The translations under genes were made by a program, and so were the position numbers. A DNA stretch of 64,000 nt from Chitinophagaceae bacterium LGM1 (GTDB taxonomy: Bacteria > Bacteroidota > Bacteroidia > Chitinophagales > Chitinophagaceae), in the NCBI GenBank assembly GCA_018604165.1, contig CP075895.1, forward strand, positions 992,001 to 1,056,000. The letters run 5' to 3'. Shown piece by piece: positions 12,615-55,393 of the stretch (positions are counted from its first letter, which is position 1; every line of letters begins with the position of its first letter). Under the pieces are notes generated by a model that made no database searches, was not told the origin of the DNA, and saw nothing but the letters and a program-made list of their open reading frames with translations.

Positions 12615-12677
12615 TTATATGTTTACGGCTGCTATGATGCATCCCAGTATAGCTACGAACATTGTTACTTTAGTCAT
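12615..12677 (-). CDS. 20-residue hydrophobic peptide
   Basis: ORF MTKVTMFVAILGCIIAAVNI, 20 residues and almost entirely one transmembrane-length hydrophobic segment. It starts 64 nt behind the -7 box at 12742-12749 after an A/C-rich leader, and 54 bp before the 51-residue ORF. Alternatives are a leader peptide regulating the downstream ORF, or a small toxin-like membrane peptide. Confidence 0.45.
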   Translation of the reverse strand: MTKVTMFVAILGCIIAAVNI

Positions 12678-12741: not shown

Positions 12742-12774
12742 CAAATATGCGACCCGCAGCAAGGGGTTGCCAAA
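12742..12774 (-). promoter_or_regulatory. Promoter of the 12.4-12.7 kb small-ORF transcript
   Basis: On the minus strand TTTG (12774-12771), a 21-bp spacer, then CATATTTG (12749-12742) followed by CATCATC. The same TTTG-N21-CATATTTGCATCAT occurs at 51740-51778 upstream of a secreted protein gene. The last GTTAA repeat begins at 12792, 43 bp before the C of CATATTTG. Confidence 0.7.
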
Positions 12775-12781
12775 TAAACAA

Positions 12782-12848
12782 GCCCGTTTAACGGCTCGTT
12801 TAAAACCGCTTAACGAGCAGCTTTGTTAAGCGTTAACCAACGGTTAAG
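12782..12848 (-). repeat. GTTAA direct-repeat array A
   Basis: On the minus strand: CTTAACCGTTG, GTTAACGCTTA, ACAAAGCTGCT, then C plus GTTAAGCGGT, TTTAAACGAGCC and GTTAAACGGGC (12792-12782). Spacing is 11, then 23, 10 and 12 bp, so the array is less regular than at 51.7 and 53.9 kb, but the promoter-proximal unit is identical to the one at 53929-53939. Confidence 0.7.
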
Positions 12849-16937: not shown

Positions 16938-18071
16938 ATGCAATTCTCATCGGTAGTAGGACAATCGGGCGCGAAGCAAGGGCTTATCAACATGTACAGA
17001 AGCGGGCACTTTCCACATGCTTTGCTGCTTACGGGCAATGAGGGTACGGGTGGGCTGCCCTTTGCGCTGGCATTGGCACAATACATATTTTGCGAAGCAC
17101 CAACGGCTACCGATAGTTGCGGGCAATGCCCTAACTGCCAAAAAGTGGGTAAGCTGGAACATGCAGACCTGCACCTTAGCTTCCCCAGCATACCACCCAA
17201 AAGCGGTACCAAAGCCATGAGCCGTCATTACATGACCGACTTCAGAGAGTTTGTAGCACAAACACCGTATGGTACTACGTACGATTGGTTGCAGTTCATC
17301 AATGCGGAAAACAAACAAGGCAACCTGACCGCCGAAGAGTGCCGAGAGATAATAGATACACTCAACCTGAAATCGTACGAAGGGGGAAAGAAAGTGCAAA
17401 TCATCTGGCGGCCTGAATACCTCGGCAAAGAGGGTAACATACTACTGAAACTAATAGAAGAACCACCAGCCGATACGATACTGATACTGGTGGCAGAAGC
17501 ACAGGAAGATATATTGCCTACCATATTATCCCGAACGCAGGATGTGAGGCTTGTACCATTGTCTGCACAAGATGTGGCGAGTGCATTATTGCAGCGCGGA
17601 TTGGCAGACGAGCGCAATGCCATGCAGATAGGACACCTTGCCAATGGCAGTTTTACAGAAGCACTCCGCCTACTGCAACATACACAAAACGACCTCTTCC
17701 CCGATGTACGAAATTGGTTCAACGCATTGTTTACCAATAATGGTATAGCCATAGCTAAGTTTGCAGATGAATGGAGCAAAGCTGGCAGAGAGCAGCAAAA
17801 GAACTTTTTGCATTATGTGATAAGCCTGCTGGAACATACTATACGCAGCCGCTACCTGCCGCAGCAATCGCCCGCACTACCACAGGAAGAAGCGCAGTTT
17901 GCCCAAAAACTGGCTGCTATGAAGATAAGCTTTGATGTATTGGGGCAGATGACAGAGGCCATATCTAAGACGATATACTATATAGAGCGTAATGCACACA
18001 GCAAAACACAATTACATAGTTTGTCTGTAAAATTGGTGTATATGATACAGAGTAGAAAAATGCCTGTTTAG
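16938..18071 (+). CDS. holB: DNA polymerase III delta' subunit-like clamp-loader protein
   Basis: 377 residues. AAA+ fold with the order seen in delta': VVGQSGAKQGLINMYRSGHFPHALLL, the Walker A position as GNEGTGGLP with no Lys (so no ATP hydrolysis, as in delta'), and the zinc-binding Cys cluster Cys52, 61, 64 and 67 (DSCGQCPNC). Then IIWRPEYLGKEGNILLKLIEEPP and the sensor-1 region TILSRTQDVRL. It works in the clamp-loader complex that places the sliding clamp on DNA. It ends against the small minus-strand ORF at 18068. Confidence 0.92.
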   Translation: MQFSSVVGQSGAKQGLINMYRSGHFPHALLLTGNEGTGGLPFALALAQYIFCEAPTATDSCGQCPNCQKVGKLEHADLHLSFPSIPPKSGTKAMSRHYMTDFREFVAQTPYGTTYDWLQFINAENKQGNLTAEECREIIDTLNLKSYEGGKKVQIIWRPEYLGKEGNILLKLIEEPPADTILILVAEAQEDILPTILSRTQDVRLVPLSAQDVASALLQRGLADERNAMQIGHLANGSFTEALRLLQHTQNDLFPDVRNWFNALFTNNGIAIAKFADEWSKAGREQQKNFLHYVISLLEHTIRSRYLPQQSPALPQEEAQFAQKLAAMKISFDVLGQMTEAISKTIYYIERNAHSKTQLHSLSVKLVYMIQSRKMPV

Positions 18072-18154
18072 TTTAGCTCTACCATCAGTTCCATTAGGAT
18101 GGCATCATATTCAGTGATTTGTACTGCCTCTATTGGGAAAGTGAAATCTAACAT
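18068..18154 (-). CDS. 28-residue acidic peptide under the GTTAA-array promoter
   Basis: ORF starting MLDFTFPIEAVQITEYDAIL and ending MVELN, 28 residues, acidic with only amphipathic hydrophobicity. It overlaps the holB stop by four bases. The evidence for it is its start: it lies 27 nt behind a TATATTCG -7 box whose geometry to the GTTAA repeats matches three other sites. The leader (AAACACTAAAACAACAAACA) has the A/C-rich composition of other starts here. Family unknown. Confidence 0.5.
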   Translation of the reverse strand: MLDFTFPIEAVQITEYDAILMELMVELN

Positions 18155-18427
18155 TGTTTGTTGTTTTAGTGTTTGATAGCACGAATATAAAAATGCCACT
18201 ACCTGATATTAAAAAAATTGCAAGTCGTTAACGAGCGATTAACAAGTGAGCGTCAACTTATTGTAAGTAAAGTTGTTCAATAATGCTTAATTAGTTGATA
18301 ATCAGTAGTTTTTTGCTGATTGTGGCTCTTGGAAAATAATATATGCTGTCTTTGTGTTTCTTTGAATGTTCATGCTGTAATTTAGACGTTGTATTACGCT
18401 ACTAAGGCTTGAAAAACAATAGGATAG
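18155..18427. other. Intergenic region carrying GTTAA array B
   Basis: Contains the minus-strand promoter and array at 18182-18243, and about 180 bp of AT-rich sequence leading to the plus-strand hydrolase gene. No further ORF is supported. Confidence 0.6.
18182..18243 (-). promoter_or_regulatory. GTTAA array B and promoter of the 28-residue ORF
   Basis: On the minus strand GTTAATCGCTC (18243-18233) and GTTAACGACTT (18232-18222) are contiguous 11-bp units, followed by a weak unit GCAATTTTTTT. The -7 box TATATTCG starts at 18189, exactly 43 bp from the G at 18232. The -33 region is T-rich without an exact TTTG. Confidence 0.65.
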
Positions 18428-51688: not shown

Positions 51689-51732
51689 GTTAATTGGTTG
51701 TTAATCGCTTGTCAATCAGGCGTTAACAAAGC
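51689..51732 (+). repeat. GTTAA direct-repeat array C, four units at exactly 11 bp
   Basis: GTTAATTGGTT (51689), GTTAATCGCTT (51700), GTCAATCAGGC (51711), GTTAACAAAGC (51722): four contiguous 11-bp units. The period is one helical turn, so one DNA face carries all four sites. Confidence 0.85.
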
Positions 51733-51772
51733 CCGATAATTTGAACATCGGGCAGTGATGCCCCCATATTTG
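51731..51772 (+). promoter_or_regulatory. Promoter of the first small secreted protein gene
   Basis: TTTG (51740-51743), 21-bp spacer, CATATTTG (51765-51772). The C of the -7 box is 43 bp from the last array unit at 51722. The -33 box is inside an inverted repeat GCCCGAT / ATCGGGC (51731-51753). Confidence 0.8.
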
Positions 51773-51831
51773 CATCATAAACAACAACAAAAACAATTTT
51801 TTAAACAAACAAACAACAAAAACAAACAACA

Positions 51832-52383
51832 ATGAAAAAAGTAATCGCAATCATCGCTCTGGGTATCACTGGTTTTGCTGCAAAAGCACAGTCGCCATCT
51901 TCTACTGCTACACAAACAGTTAACCTGAACCTGAGCAACGCAATCGAATTGACTTTCACAGGGTCTGGTTCTGCAACTGGTGCAGCTGTTAACCTCGCTT
52001 TCAACACAGTAAATGATTATGCAAACGGTGTTACCTCTGCAAATCAGGAACTGCGTGTACGTTCAAACCGTCGTTTCGGTGTAACGGTTCGTACCAATAA
52101 TGCAAACTTTACTTATACCGGTACTGTATCTCCTGCTCCTGTAATGCCTGTAAGTGGTGTATTAGGACTGAAAGTAGGAAGCAACAGCACAGGTGGTGCC
52201 ATAGCTTCACCGTTCAGCACAACAGCATATGCAGGTTTGACATCAGCAGCACAAAATCTGTTGACAAATGCTAACAACGGCGGTAACCAACTGTTCAGCG
52301 TATCATACGAAGCACAACCTGGTTTCACTTACCCTGCAGGTACTTATACTGTAGATGTAGTGTACACGGCTACGCAGCTTTAA
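51832..52383 (+). CDS. Small secreted beta protein, DUF4402-like (paralogue 1)
   Basis: 183 residues. Signal peptide to about 19 (GFAAKAQ). Mature part: TVNLNLSNAIELTF, AVNLAFNTVNDYANGVTSANQELRVRSNRRFGVTVRTNNANFTYTG, SPAPVMPVSGVLGLKV, GGAIASPFSTTAYAGL and a closing YPAGTYTVDVVYTATQL. This looks like a beta-sandwich of the DUF4402 / spore-coat-U type. Two paralogues lie within 3 kb. No T9SS domain, so it may be released to the periplasm or surface by other means. Driven by array C. Family call is from pattern, not search. Confidence 0.75.
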   Translation: MKKVIAIIALGITGFAAKAQSPSSTATQTVNLNLSNAIELTFTGSGSATGAAVNLAFNTVNDYANGVTSANQELRVRSNRRFGVTVRTNNANFTYTGTVSPAPVMPVSGVLGLKVGSNSTGGAIASPFSTTAYAGLTSAAQNLLTNANNGGNQLFSVSYEAQPGFTYPAGTYTVDVVYTATQL

Positions 52384-52410
52384 TCAATCGGATCTTTTTC
52401 ATCCAAATAC

Positions 52411-52440
52411 GAGGGCTCCCCAATCGGGGAGCTTTCTTTT
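52411..52440 (+). terminator. Terminator after the first small secreted protein gene
   Basis: GCTCCCC / GGGGAGC with an AATC loop, followed by TTTCTTTTTT. Confidence 0.85.
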
Positions 52441-52468
52441 TTGTGTAGATTGCAGTCTTGTATAGAGT

Positions 52469-53812
52469 ATGAAAAACAGCATTATTACATTATGTATTGC
52501 CTGTATGTGTATTACAGGGCTACAAGCACAAGACAACAGAGCTAAAACGATAGACTCAGTATTAAGCGTATACAATAGGCAGGGTATGTTTAATGGTACA
52601 GTATTGGTAACCCAATATAACAGGCCATTTTTCGCTAAAGGCTACGGATACAAAGACGCAGTTAAAAAACAAGTAAACGATACAAATACCATTTTCCAGA
52701 TTGGTTCTATAACTAAAACATTCACAGCTACCATGATATTGATGCTGCAAGAGCAAGGTAAGCTGCATGTAAAAGACAAACTGGTAAAGTACTTGCCCGA
52801 TTACCCTGATGCAGATAAAATAACTGTTGAAAATTTGCTAACCCATACTTCGGGTATATACAACTATACAGAAGATACTGTTTTCGCAAATAAAGGTATG
52901 TTTACTGCAAAAAGCCGTAAAGAAATGTTAGCAGTTTTTAAAGATAAGCTGACGGGGATTGAACCAGGCACTATATTCAGTTACAGCAACTCAAATTATA
53001 TGTTGCTAGGCTATATTATTGAAGATATTACAGGGAAACCTTACTATACTGCCTTGCGTGAAATGATATTGCAACCACTCGGAATGCGCAATACAGGTTG
53101 CGATTTTGCTGTGTTGAAGAACAAAAACAAGGCAACAGGTTATTTTTCGATGGAAGATAATAATAGTATAAAAGCACCGTTGGTAGATTCTTCCGTGTCG
53201 TATGCGGCGGGCTGTATTTACACAACAGCAGGCGACTTGCTGAAATGGGCAGAAGCCGTACAAAAAGAACAGTTACTGAGCAAAACAAGTTGGCAAACCG
53301 CTACAACAGAGTACAAGCAACACTATGGATACGGGTGGATGATAGGAGAGGCATTATCTAAAAAAAGTATTGGACATAATGGTGGGGTGCATGGTTTTGT
53401 AGCCAATATGTTTATGACCAAAGAAGATGGGCACACAGTTATCCTGTTATCGAACGTAATGGATAATGACCTTGCTCCTATCAGGCGGAATATTACAGCT
53501 ATTATAAATGATAAGCCTTATGAGCTGCCTGAATTTCGCAAAGAAGTAAAATTGCCTGTGACATTATTAAAAGAATACATCGGCAGTTATGAGTTGGCTC
53601 CTAATTTCTTAATTAATATCACGTTGGAAGGTGATAAGCTGTTTGCTCAGGCAACAGGGCAAACCAAATTGCGTATCTATGCAGAACGTAAAGACTTTTT
53701 CTTTTTGAAACTGGTAGATGCGCAAATATCATTTGGACGAGATGCAAGCGCCAAGGTAGAAAAGCTAAGCTTAAGACAAGGTGGTAGGATAGTACTAGGT
53801 ATGAAGAAGTAG
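52469..53812 (+). CDS. Serine hydrolase of the class C beta-lactamase / DD-peptidase family
   Basis: 447 residues. Signal peptide to about 20 (GLQAQ). Catalytic motifs in order: S80-x-x-K83 (QIGSITKTFTATMIL), Y-S-N (TIFSYSNSNYMLLGYIIE, about residue 172) and H-x-G (GHNGGVHGF, about 313). A C-terminal lipocalin-like part (YIGSYELAPNFLINITLEGDKLFAQATGQ) follows. It may be a periplasmic peptidase or esterase acting on D-amino acid peptides. Terminator at 53841. Confidence 0.92.
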   Translation: MKNSIITLCIACMCITGLQAQDNRAKTIDSVLSVYNRQGMFNGTVLVTQYNRPFFAKGYGYKDAVKKQVNDTNTIFQIGSITKTFTATMILMLQEQGKLHVKDKLVKYLPDYPDADKITVENLLTHTSGIYNYTEDTVFANKGMFTAKSRKEMLAVFKDKLTGIEPGTIFSYSNSNYMLLGYIIEDITGKPYYTALREMILQPLGMRNTGCDFAVLKNKNKATGYFSMEDNNSIKAPLVDSSVSYAAGCIYTTAGDLLKWAEAVQKEQLLSKTSWQTATTEYKQHYGYGWMIGEALSKKSIGHNGGVHGFVANMFMTKEDGHTVILLSNVMDNDLAPIRRNITAIINDKPYELPEFRKEVKLPVTLLKEYIGSYELAPNFLINITLEGDKLFAQATGQTKLRIYAERKDFFFLKLVDAQISFGRDASAKVEKLSLRQGGRIVLGMKK

Positions 53813-53840
53813 TAAAAACAATTTTTTCAATAGAAATATC

Positions 53841-53867
53841 AGCAGGCTATAGGCCTGCTTTTTTTAT
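53841..53867 (+). terminator. Terminator after the serine hydrolase gene
   Basis: AGCAGGC / GCCTGCT with a five-base loop followed by seven T. Confidence 0.9.
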
Positions 53868-53895
53868 TGATAATCAATAGGTTGGTGGTTAGGTT

Positions 53896-53939
53896 GTTAA
53901 TTGTCTGTTAGGTGCTTGCAAAGTGCGGGTTAAACGGGC
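53896..53939 (+). repeat. GTTAA direct-repeat array D, four units at exactly 11 bp
   Basis: GTTAATTGTCT (53896), GTTAGGTGCTT (53907), GCAAAGTGCGG (53918), GTTAAACGGGC (53929). Same number, period and order as array C, with the third unit the least conserved in both, although the surrounding sequence differs. Confidence 0.85.
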
Positions 53940-53948
53940 TGTGATTTT

Positions 53949-53979
53949 AGGTTAAAGGTGATTTGTATGGACATATTTG
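53949..53979 (+). promoter_or_regulatory. Promoter of the second small secreted protein gene
   Basis: CATATTTG at 53972-53979, 43 bp from the array unit at 53929. The -33 position has TTAG, not TTTG, at the 21-bp spacing. The start codon is 19 nt downstream. Confidence 0.75.
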
Positions 53980-53998
53980 CAGTAAGAAACAAACTGTA

Positions 53999-54544
53999 AT
54001 GAAACAAACAATTTCCATCATCGGCATCCTTATCTGCAGCACAGGCGTATTTGCACAGCAAAGCAGCAATGGCTCTCAAACTGTACAGATGGGTGTGAGC
54101 AGCACCATAGAAATGGCTTTTACAGGTAGTGGTACGGCTACAGGTACAATTGTAAACCTGAACTTTAATACTGTAAATGATTATGCAAATGGTGTGGTGT
54201 CTGCCAATCAGGAATTGTCTGTAACATCTAACAGAAACTATACGGTAGCCATTAAAACAAATACATCCAATTTTACCTATACAGGTAGCACATCGCCTGC
54301 ACCCACTATGCCGGTAAATGTACTGAGCCTGCTGATAGCTAGCAATGCAACAGGTGGTGCTATTGTGAGTCCTTTTTCTACAACAGCTTACAGTACACTT
54401 AGTAATAGCAGCCAAATGATGCTGAACACTTGTACGGCAGGCAGCAACAAATTATTTGCTATAAAATACAAAGCTACTCCGGGGTTTATTTATCCTGCAG
54501 GTACTTATACAGTAGATGTTCTTTTCACAGCAACCCAACTATAA
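53999..54544 (+). CDS. Small secreted beta protein, DUF4402-like (paralogue 2)
   Basis: 181 residues from MKQTISIIGILICSTGVFAQ; a longer in-frame start is excluded because its extension would begin inside the -7 box. The sequence follows paralogue 1 closely: TVQMGVSSTIEMAFTG, VNLNFNTVNDYANGVVSANQELSVTSNRNYTVAIKTN, NFTYTGSTSPAPTMPVNVLSL, SPFSTTAYSTL and YPAGTYTVDVLFTATQL. A Cys (LNTCTAGSNKL) is unique to it. It is 20 bp before paralogue 3 and likely co-transcribed. Confidence 0.75.
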   Translation: MKQTISIIGILICSTGVFAQQSSNGSQTVQMGVSSTIEMAFTGSGTATGTIVNLNFNTVNDYANGVVSANQELSVTSNRNYTVAIKTNTSNFTYTGSTSPAPTMPVNVLSLLIASNATGGAIVSPFSTTAYSTLSNSSQMMLNTCTAGSNKLFAIKYKATPGFIYPAGTYTVDVLFTATQL

Positions 54545-54564
54545 ACCTGCAAAGCAAACAAAAA

Positions 54565-55140
54565 ATGAAAAGGACAAATAAGCAAATGAGCATAGTAATA
54601 AAAGCCATACTGGTTTTCGCTGCAGGTATGTTGTTGGCAGTTGGTGCTAATGCACAACAAGCCAATAGCAGTGCTACACAAACGGCTAATCTGAACCTTG
54701 CAGATGCTATAGAATTGTCATTCATCAACGGTGGTGGTGGTACAGTCAATCTTGGGTTTAATACCGCTTCAGAACTTATAAACGGTAAAGAGAGTATGAT
54801 GCAAGACATCAGGGTACGTTCTAACAGAAAGTTTAAAGTAGCTGTGTCAAGCTCTACTGCCAACTTTACGTATTCGGGTACTTCTATTGTTAATAACATC
54901 ATACCTGTAAGCACTGGTTTGAAAGTAATGGTAACGGCTAATAACACAGGTGGGTATATGACATTGTCTGCATTGCTTGGCTGGTTGGGCGTTAACTTTG
55001 GCAACAGTACTACCATACTTACCGCTTGCGACCCCGGTGGCAACCAGACATTTACTGTAAAATACAAAGCCACTCCGGGCATATTAGCAGCCCCCGGCAC
55101 TTATACCACAGAGGTGATTTTTACCGCTACACAGATGTAA
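54565..55140 (+). CDS. Small secreted beta protein, DUF4402-like (paralogue 3)
   Basis: 191 residues; signal peptide with an extended basic N-terminus (MKRTNKQMSIVIKAILVFAA to GANAQQ). It follows the paralogue pattern (TANLNLADAIELSFINGGGG, VNLGFNTASELINGKESMMQDIRVRSNRKFKVAVSSSTANFTYSG, NQTFTVKYKATPGILAAPGTYTTEVIFTATQM) but lacks the SPFSTTAY region and has a changed middle. It shares its message with paralogue 2. Ends 12 bp before array E. Confidence 0.75.
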   Translation: MKRTNKQMSIVIKAILVFAAGMLLAVGANAQQANSSATQTANLNLADAIELSFINGGGGTVNLGFNTASELINGKESMMQDIRVRSNRKFKVAVSSSTANFTYSGTSIVNNIIPVSTGLKVMVTANNTGGYMTLSALLGWLGVNFGNSTTILTACDPGGNQTFTVKYKATPGILAAPGTYTTEVIFTATQM

Positions 55141-55151
55141 AACGTAGCATG

Positions 55152-55212
55152 GTTAAACGGCTGTTAAGTAGCACAGTATTTTTTGAAAGGGTAATACACT
55201 AACTGATATTTA
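55152..55212 (+). promoter_or_regulatory. GTTAA array E and promoter of the 54-residue ORF
   Basis: GTTAAACGGCT (55152) and GTTAAGTAGCA (55163), contiguous 11-bp units. TTTG at 55182-55185, 19-bp spacer, GATATTTA at 55205-55212. The spacing from the last unit to the -7 box is 42 bp, one less than at other sites. Confidence 0.7.
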
Positions 55213-55228
55213 CACAAAACAAAAAAAC

Positions 55229-55393
55229 ATGAAAGCACACAGTCTTACATCTCGCCCAAAACCTTTTGGTAATAAAGTGCTGCATTACTTCACCAAGCTC
55301 AATCCGTTTCGCGGAGAGTTGGTAGAGGTGGAGATGAAAGTAGTAGGCAAGCGTATTGTGTATTCTTATACTAAAATCAGGGAAACGAATTAA
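55229..55393 (+). CDS. 54-residue basic protein under the GTTAA-array promoter
   Basis: ORF starting MKAHSLTSRPKPFGNKVLHY, 54 residues. It is strongly basic and apparently folded in the second half, where strands can be read (GELVEVEMKVVGKRIVYSYTKIR). No signal or membrane segment. It starts 17 nt after the GATATTTA box with an A/C-rich leader (CACAAAACAAAAAAAC). Family unknown. It is followed by the membrane protease gene after 39 bp. Confidence 0.6.
   Translation: MKAHSLTSRPKPFGNKVLHYFTKLNPFRGELVEVEMKVVGKRIVYSYTKIRETN

Follow-up and report, generated by a model that had tools for sequence, protein, structure and literature searches.

OmpR/PhoB-type response regulators have sites made of direct repeats with a period of 10-11 bp, and the repeat of Salmonella PmrA has a period of 11 bp. 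The PmrA site is described as a YTTAAK direct repeat (PMC10927774) and the HP1043 site as TTTAAG-N5-TTTAAG, that is, TTAA repeats with a 5-bp spacer in an activator position (PMC8345958). PlnC and PlnD recognise TACGTTAAT repeats that are separated by a 12-bp spacer and lie immediately upstream of the -35 (PMC2714321), and BldC forms an asymmetric head-to-tail filament on direct repeats with 9-bp units AATTNNNN(C) (PMC5859096). Here we analysed a 64,000-nt stretch of Chitinophagaceae bacterium LGM1 (contig CP075895.1, positions 992,001 to 1,056,000; hereafter the window), in which five sites, A to E, all fit a single promoter element made of up to four GTTAA-like 11-bp units and a CATATTTG-type -7 box. 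The element almost certainly marks a regulon with one shared operator. In a fuller reading, to which we give even chances, it would be the operator and core promoter of a lineage-specific regulon read by a head-to-tail activator, whose most likely class is OmpR/PhoB.

Like the HP1043 and PmrA sites, the element carries TTAA-core hexamers every 11 bp, at or just above the promoter, and thus has the period of OmpR/PhoB-type sites. It differs from both in having four units instead of two, in a unit 1 that starts with G or C and in its Bacteroidota -7 box. Among the titles listed by searches of the open-access literature, none describes it, which is weak evidence of absence; the regulon is a new one, of a kind already known.

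Array, register and core promoter

The five sites were located by direct reading and scored with two profiles. R1 is a sequence-only profile of 17 sites from the own genome (a single contig of 3,322,193 bp), including A, C and D. R2 is a wider profile of 96 sites, again including A, C and D, from which B and E were held out. The features of the window are as follows.

51689..51732, plus strand: array of site C, four 11-bp units GTTAATTGGTT GTTAATCGCTT GTCAATCAGGC GTTAACAAAGC (R2 E=1.2e-18, in training set)
51740..51743, plus strand: -33 element TTTG of site C, read directly; this column is conserved in the own and relative alignments
51765..51772, plus strand: -7 box CATATTTG of site C, 43 bp from the start of unit 4
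51832..52383, plus strand: pilin-like secreted protein, 183 aa, target of site C
53896..53939, plus strand: array of site D, four 11-bp units GTTAA, GTTAG, GCAAA, GTTAA (R2 E=3.7e-13, in training set)
53972..53979, plus strand: -7 box CATATTTG of site D, 43 bp from unit 4
53999..54544, plus strand: pilin-like secreted paralogue, 181 aa, target of site D
54565..55140, plus strand: third pilin-like paralogue, 191 aa, 20 bp after the gene of the 181-aa paralogue and probably on the same transcript
55152..55173, plus strand: array of site E, two 11-bp units (held out of training, R2 E=4.4e-4)
55205..55212, plus strand: -7 box GATATTTA of site E, 42 bp from the last unit
55229..55393, plus strand: 54-aa open reading frame (ORF), target of site E, with homologues behind the same element in genomes G042 and G132
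12782..12848, minus strand: array of site A, units at 12814 and 12792, 22 bp apart (R2 E=1.3e-16, in training set)
12742..12749, minus strand: -7 box CATATTTG of site A, 43 bp from the last unit
12615..12677, minus strand: 20-aa membrane peptide MTKVTMFVAILGCIIAAVNI, target of site A
18222..18243, minus strand: array of site B, two 11-bp units (held out, R1 E=3.7e-5, R2 E=1.1e-6)
18182..18189, minus strand: -7 box TATATTCG of site B, 43 bp from the last unit
18068..18154, minus strand: 28-aa ORF, target of site B; no homologues seen behind the other sites (131 sites)

The sequence-only reading of this DNA had placed the five sites at these positions and had given a distance from the last GTTAA to the -7 box of 43 bp at A, B, C and D and 42 bp at E; direct reading confirmed both. 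It had also described C and D as four GTTAA-N6 units. Four units are indeed present, but in C the third reads GTCAA and exact GTTAA is confined to the other three; in D only units 1 and 4 are exact. Site A has an additional irregular pair of units upstream (12847-12818), and the -33 position of site D reads TTTA, the sequence-only reading having claimed TTTG for A, C and E only. Over the window, R1 recovered A, C and D together with the held-out B. Site E is the weakest of the five and was not found by R1 at E<=10; it is supported by the homologues of its 54-aa ORF behind the element in other genomes.

Ten of the 15 same-strand GTTAA pairs lying 5-59 bp apart in the window are spaced at multiples of 11 (binomial p 8e-8, pairs within one array not being independent). 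A composite pattern was found at three places in the window (A, B and C), compared to none in 200 first-order simulated windows. In the whole genome, the pattern GTTAA-N(0-30)-GTTAA-N(20-50)-TATTTG gave 31 matches, some overlapping, compared to 10 when it was read backwards. This search is free of any built-in spacing, since neither distance was fixed. R1 yielded 46 matches in the own genome at E<=10, of which 32 had E<0.01, 15 of these lying outside the training set.

We aligned 18 own sites from the first pattern search, anchored on the -7 box, and built R1 from 17 of them; roughly half of the 18 promoters are those of a single gene family. The consensus array reads GTTAA-N6, GTTAACCGCTT, G[CT][AC]AA-N6, GTTAA-N6, followed by ATTTG, about 21 bp and CAT[AC]TTTGYATCA. 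The two A of unit 3 are found in 18/18 and 17/18 sites, and the search pattern carried no requirement for this unit. One own site (L028) has 44 bp to the -7 box.

As in the primary-sigma promoters of Bacteroidota (F. psychrophilum SM1-3, TAnnTTTG), the -7 box has A at its second place and ends with TTTG, the latter by selection. Unlike in these promoters, where the first base is T, it mostly starts with C (17/18 own and 71/92 relative sites). By analogy with them, transcription is expected to start about 5 nt downstream of the box.

Recurrence in related genomes

For a survey of the family, 147 genomes were scanned with R1 under stricter filters (E<=0.01, at most 27 candidates scored per genome). 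Matches occurred in 44 genomes: 4 to 27 in 12, three in two (G013 and G074) and one in 30, leaving 103 with none. The first 12, hereafter called element-rich, are G000 (27), G050 (24), G136 (23), G020 and G117 (20 each), G132 (19), G079 (18), G042 (17), G033 (11), G094 (8), G062 (7) and G144 (4). In a survey of the order (396 genomes, R2, at most 10 candidates scored per genome), 14 genomes had a match at E<=1e-3, with 9 or 10 in G000, G094, G020 and G050, two in G039 and one in nine genomes; several element-rich genomes do not appear there and were assumed not to have been drawn. A pattern scan of a collection of species genomes returned 110 stretches, and the 80 listed come mostly from Flavipsychrobacter, Taibaiella and unnamed Bacteroidetes assemblies. 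This pattern required all four units and is therefore no test of them. Scattered matches in other phyla were taken for chance or misbinning. Judging by its named members, the lineage carrying the element falls within Chitinophagaceae in the NCBI taxonomy.

The architecture was further compared on 100 sites from relatives, covering six other genera and G094, of the same genus as the window, hence seven genera in total. A clean core was present in 93 of them and absent from seven (spacing of 39-47 allowed); 92 sites could be used, of which 80 remained after removal of redundancy. The distance between unit 4 and the -7 box is 42 bp in 52 of the 93 sites and 43 bp in 41, a tightness partly built in since unit 4 is set by selection and R1 favours the spacing. 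In the non-redundant set, unit 1 is [G/C]TTAA, with T, T, A and A at 59, 64, 74 and 67 of 80 sites; unit 2 is GTTAA and unit 3 GYAAA, the two A of the latter being found at 78/80 and 77/80. Two relative sites (L163, L188) have 23 bp between units 2 and 4. The four units and the 42/43-bp register recur across seven genera. With the 32 matches in the own genome, they bear out the claim of one recurrent promoter class, with its repeats on a single helix face at a near-fixed distance.

In both the own and relative alignments, conservation is concentrated in the array and in the -33 and -7 parts. Between G000 and isolate IBVUCB1, about 80% identical in aligned DNA, one array and its -7 region hardly differ, unlike the spacer and the flank upstream; the transcribed leader is also conserved. 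An inverted repeat, TTGATAATCAA or TTGATTTTCAA, lies tens of bases above several arrays (for example L035, L036, L044 and L049; uncounted).

Target genes and transcripts

Reading of the ORFs at 30 own loci showed that 13 sites precede the pilin-like family and five precede tiny membrane peptides (KIMLFVSIITCVVLAVNF and alike). The remainder comprises three PID-CTERM proteins, two members of a 94-98-aa family and seven others, one without evident ORF. Two of the PID-CTERM targets score above the NCBIfam cut-off and the third scores 25.0 against a cut-off of 26; the gene after this third target is exosortase-X-like, a partial-sequence match below the family cut-off. When the ORFs downstream of 131 sites (site E, 30 own and 100 relative sites) were clustered, 12 groups were present in at least two genomes, and two of these groups look artefactual (one out of frame, one due to a shared 3′ DNA block). 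Ten protein groups therefore carry the element in at least two genomes, eight of them across genera, in agreement with the earlier suggestion of one regulon of small secreted paralogues and tiny ORFs. Some of the tiny-protein groups may be remote relatives of one another.

The prominence of one family raises the question of whether the upstream similarity is simply a relic of recent duplication of the pilin-like genes, devoid of regulatory meaning. The 13 of 30 own sites and some near-identical upstream DNA speak for it. Against it, 17 own sites lie elsewhere, 16 before other ORFs and one without evident ORF; unlike proteins carry the element across genera; and conservation is concentrated in the parts described above. 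Moreover, G062 and G144 (genus g63) have 7 and 4 elements and no pilin-like match at E<=1e-8. With ten target groups, eight of them across genera, duplication alone is insufficient as an explanation. We consider it extremely improbable and rejected it, genes outside the family carrying the element.

At this threshold, the pilin-like family is found in 14/147 genomes; the 10 strong cases (E<1e-70) are all element-rich, and four genomes that are not (G016, G018, G071 and G077) have weak matches. The predicted fold of the protein (mean pLDDT 85.5) is nearest to TLP-1a and the CFA/I pilin CfaB (best E 2.7e-5, TM-scores about 0.4-0.55), a modest fold-level match suggesting that the secreted paralogues may be pilins. 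Pfam gave no credible family for them, only stray matches, and NCBIfam no family for the one pilin-like protein searched.

The 94-98-aa family lies near scattered phage-like genes (terminase-like, tail-like and SIR2-like) in G000 and G136 (L096, L097, L106). Judged by eye from the ORFs, this neighbourhood is possibly a domesticated phage or gene-transfer cluster.

A minority of the regulon's transcripts carry a 20-nt block CTCTCTTATCCTCTATATGT immediately before an intrinsic terminator; the genes in front of it encode tiny peptides or pilin-like proteins.

Positions of CTCTCTTATCCTCTATATGT blocks: L042:1804-1823, L050:1821-1840, L051:1760-1779, L160:510-529, L189:855-874, and others

The exact 12-mer TCTCTCTTATCC was found downstream of 5/30 own and 11/100 relative sites (five genera), each copy, by eye, directly before a terminator-like hairpin (four were folded). 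The background count is 11 copies in 1.07 Mb of further fetched loci, a part of which are themselves regulon members. Among 119 downstream stretches, 14 score 20-21 out of 21 for the 3′ block, compared to a maximum of 16 in 357 mononucleotide shuffles. The block does not occur in the window and most other regulon transcripts lack it. The CTCTCTTATCCTCTATATGT block looks like a small-RNA seed. It is conceivable, if doubtful, that one activator drives fibre subunits, membrane peptides and small RNAs together, and that messages carrying the 3′ block UCUCUCUUAUCCUCUAUAUGU act in trans as regulatory RNAs; if true, this would be a circuit peculiar to the lineage, in which a transcription factor is combined with small RNAs.

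Two sites, L165 and L228, have the pyrimidine block (a variant in L228) and a terminator-like hairpin within about 140 and 45 nt of the element; with no ORF recognised between, their products are probable small RNAs. At L097:6129-6523 (G000:C1 about 2322128-2322522), an element without evident ORF is followed by eleven CCGTAA copies, most of them 30-33 bp apart and nine flanked by at least three complementary pairs. This array is also present in isolate IBVUCB1, and a single copy lies in the 5′ leader of the next pilin-like gene; it resembles a sponge RNA or an RNA that binds protein. For two RNA features, the CCGTAA array among them, no Rfam family came near its threshold.

Candidate readers of the element

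What is directly observed is an array of four units that keeps a 42/43-bp register, returns in seven genera and stands in front of several small genes unlike one another. Four units of one turn each, a fixed register and a place above the -33 element point to a head-to-tail activator touching polymerase. Such a protein would bind along the four 11-bp units on one helix face, with one subunit per unit. Its downstream subunit, at unit 4, would sit just above the -33 element and contact RNA polymerase on a primary-sigma promoter, the -7 box of which differs from TAnnTTTG in its first base. Activation rather than repression, a single protein for all sites and one subunit per unit are what we infer. 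From the layout, the reader would be an OmpR/PhoB-type winged-helix response regulator recognising TTAA half-sites, a possibility that we rate slightly below even.

The sequence-only reading had put forward a LytTR regulator, which was not established. Two subunits would then occupy the GTTAA cores of units 2 and 4, and units 1 and 3 would form a second, weaker pair interleaved with them. Like PlnC/PlnD sites (TACGTTAAT-N12-TACGTTAAT), the element has a GTTAA core in direct repeats directly above the -35. Unlike them, with two sites in a 21-bp repeat, it has four units with distances of 11 and 22 bp. LytTR sites are 9-bp repeats with a GTT core about 21 bp apart; here units 2 and 4 lie 22 bp apart and units 1 and 3 are conserved too. 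Against a LytTR reader stand the 11-bp, four-unit layout and the near-invariant AA of unit 3, which would be spacer between two LytTR sites 21-22 bp apart.

The own genome encodes six LytTR and seven PF00486 regulators. Searches over the 147 genomes of the family covered three of these thirteen (LytTR 2331k, LytTR 1442k and PF00486 L252), none of which tracks the element without exception. Several results weigh against an OmpR/PhoB-type reader or against the strictness of the layout. The best co-occurrence is that of LytTR 2331k, present in 10/12 element-rich genomes (Fisher 4e-12). At >=220 bits it occurs in 12/147 genomes, the other two being G026 and G092 (60% complete), both without element at the cut-off. 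Within the sub-clade, the figures are 10/12 against 2/10 (p 0.005); neither p value is corrected for kinship. Units 2 and 4, 22 bp apart, are the strongest part of the array in the own genome, which suits two LytTR subunits. The search pattern and the model account for the invariance of unit 4, for the TTTG of the box and in part for the tight spacing. PF00486 L252 (E<=1e-75) is found in 54/147 genomes and does not follow the element: at this threshold it is missing from element-rich G042 (which has a 53% orthologue), G062, G079, G132 and G144. It was rejected as a clade-specific reader. In favour of an OmpR/PhoB-type reader, each of the five other element-rich genomes examined carries reciprocal orthologues of L252, L257 and L389, and four of the five carry those of L390 and L265, with near-identical recognition helices. 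For the PF00486 proteins other than L252 this conservation tells little, as they may occur throughout the family.

The co-occurrence of 2331k has exceptions as well, with no match at E<=1e-30 in G020 and G117 (genus g21, 20 elements each) and its presence in G026 and G092. Among the six LytTR regulators, 1442k alone has an orthologue in each of the five genomes compared (G000, G094, G042, G020 and G117). However, it is widespread at E<=1e-60 (108/147 genomes, most without element) and not found in element-rich G033, a 90%-complete draft; this distribution led us to reject it as a specific reader. It adjoins a LiaF-like gene and a LytS-type kinase, and 5 of the 12 genomes viewed have, about 5 kb from it, a cluster with pilin-like and chaperone-like genes. 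This cluster (L101, G000:C1 1435382-1437882) comprises the pilin-like gene, a chaperone-like gene with a sub-threshold WxLIP match and two small secreted proteins; its order is kept in G136, G050, G042 and G132, and it was not seen beside 1442k in the seven other genomes viewed. Altogether, we regard a LytTR reader as possible but unlikely. Co-occurrence favours LytTR 2331k and layout an OmpR-type protein.

Other head-to-tail binders, such as a BldC-like MerR-type protein, another helix-turn-helix protein or an as yet undescribed regulator, are less probable still. Streptomyces BldC offers a precedent, as an asymmetric filament of variable length on direct repeats variable in number; its 9-bp unit is not that of the element, which has 11 bp. 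A RemA-like (PF04025) repeat-array binder was rejected, with no member in the 12 genomes searched. Among the ORFs behind the sites no regulator gene was seen, a weak negative as only the longest ORF per site was inspected, by eye.

Whichever protein reads it, the element appears to place about thirty scattered genes, many of them tiny or pilin-like, under one promoter design in one Bacteroidota lineage. With roughly 10-30 sites in each genome, the regulon is open to testing in a group for which no mapped regulator was found, and the strict register of the element offers a clean test of activator action on the Bacteroidota polymerase. The regulon ties together small-protein families, pilin-like secreted proteins and tiny membrane peptides, for which Pfam and NCBIfam yielded no family, and the identity of the reader would tell what these proteins are for.

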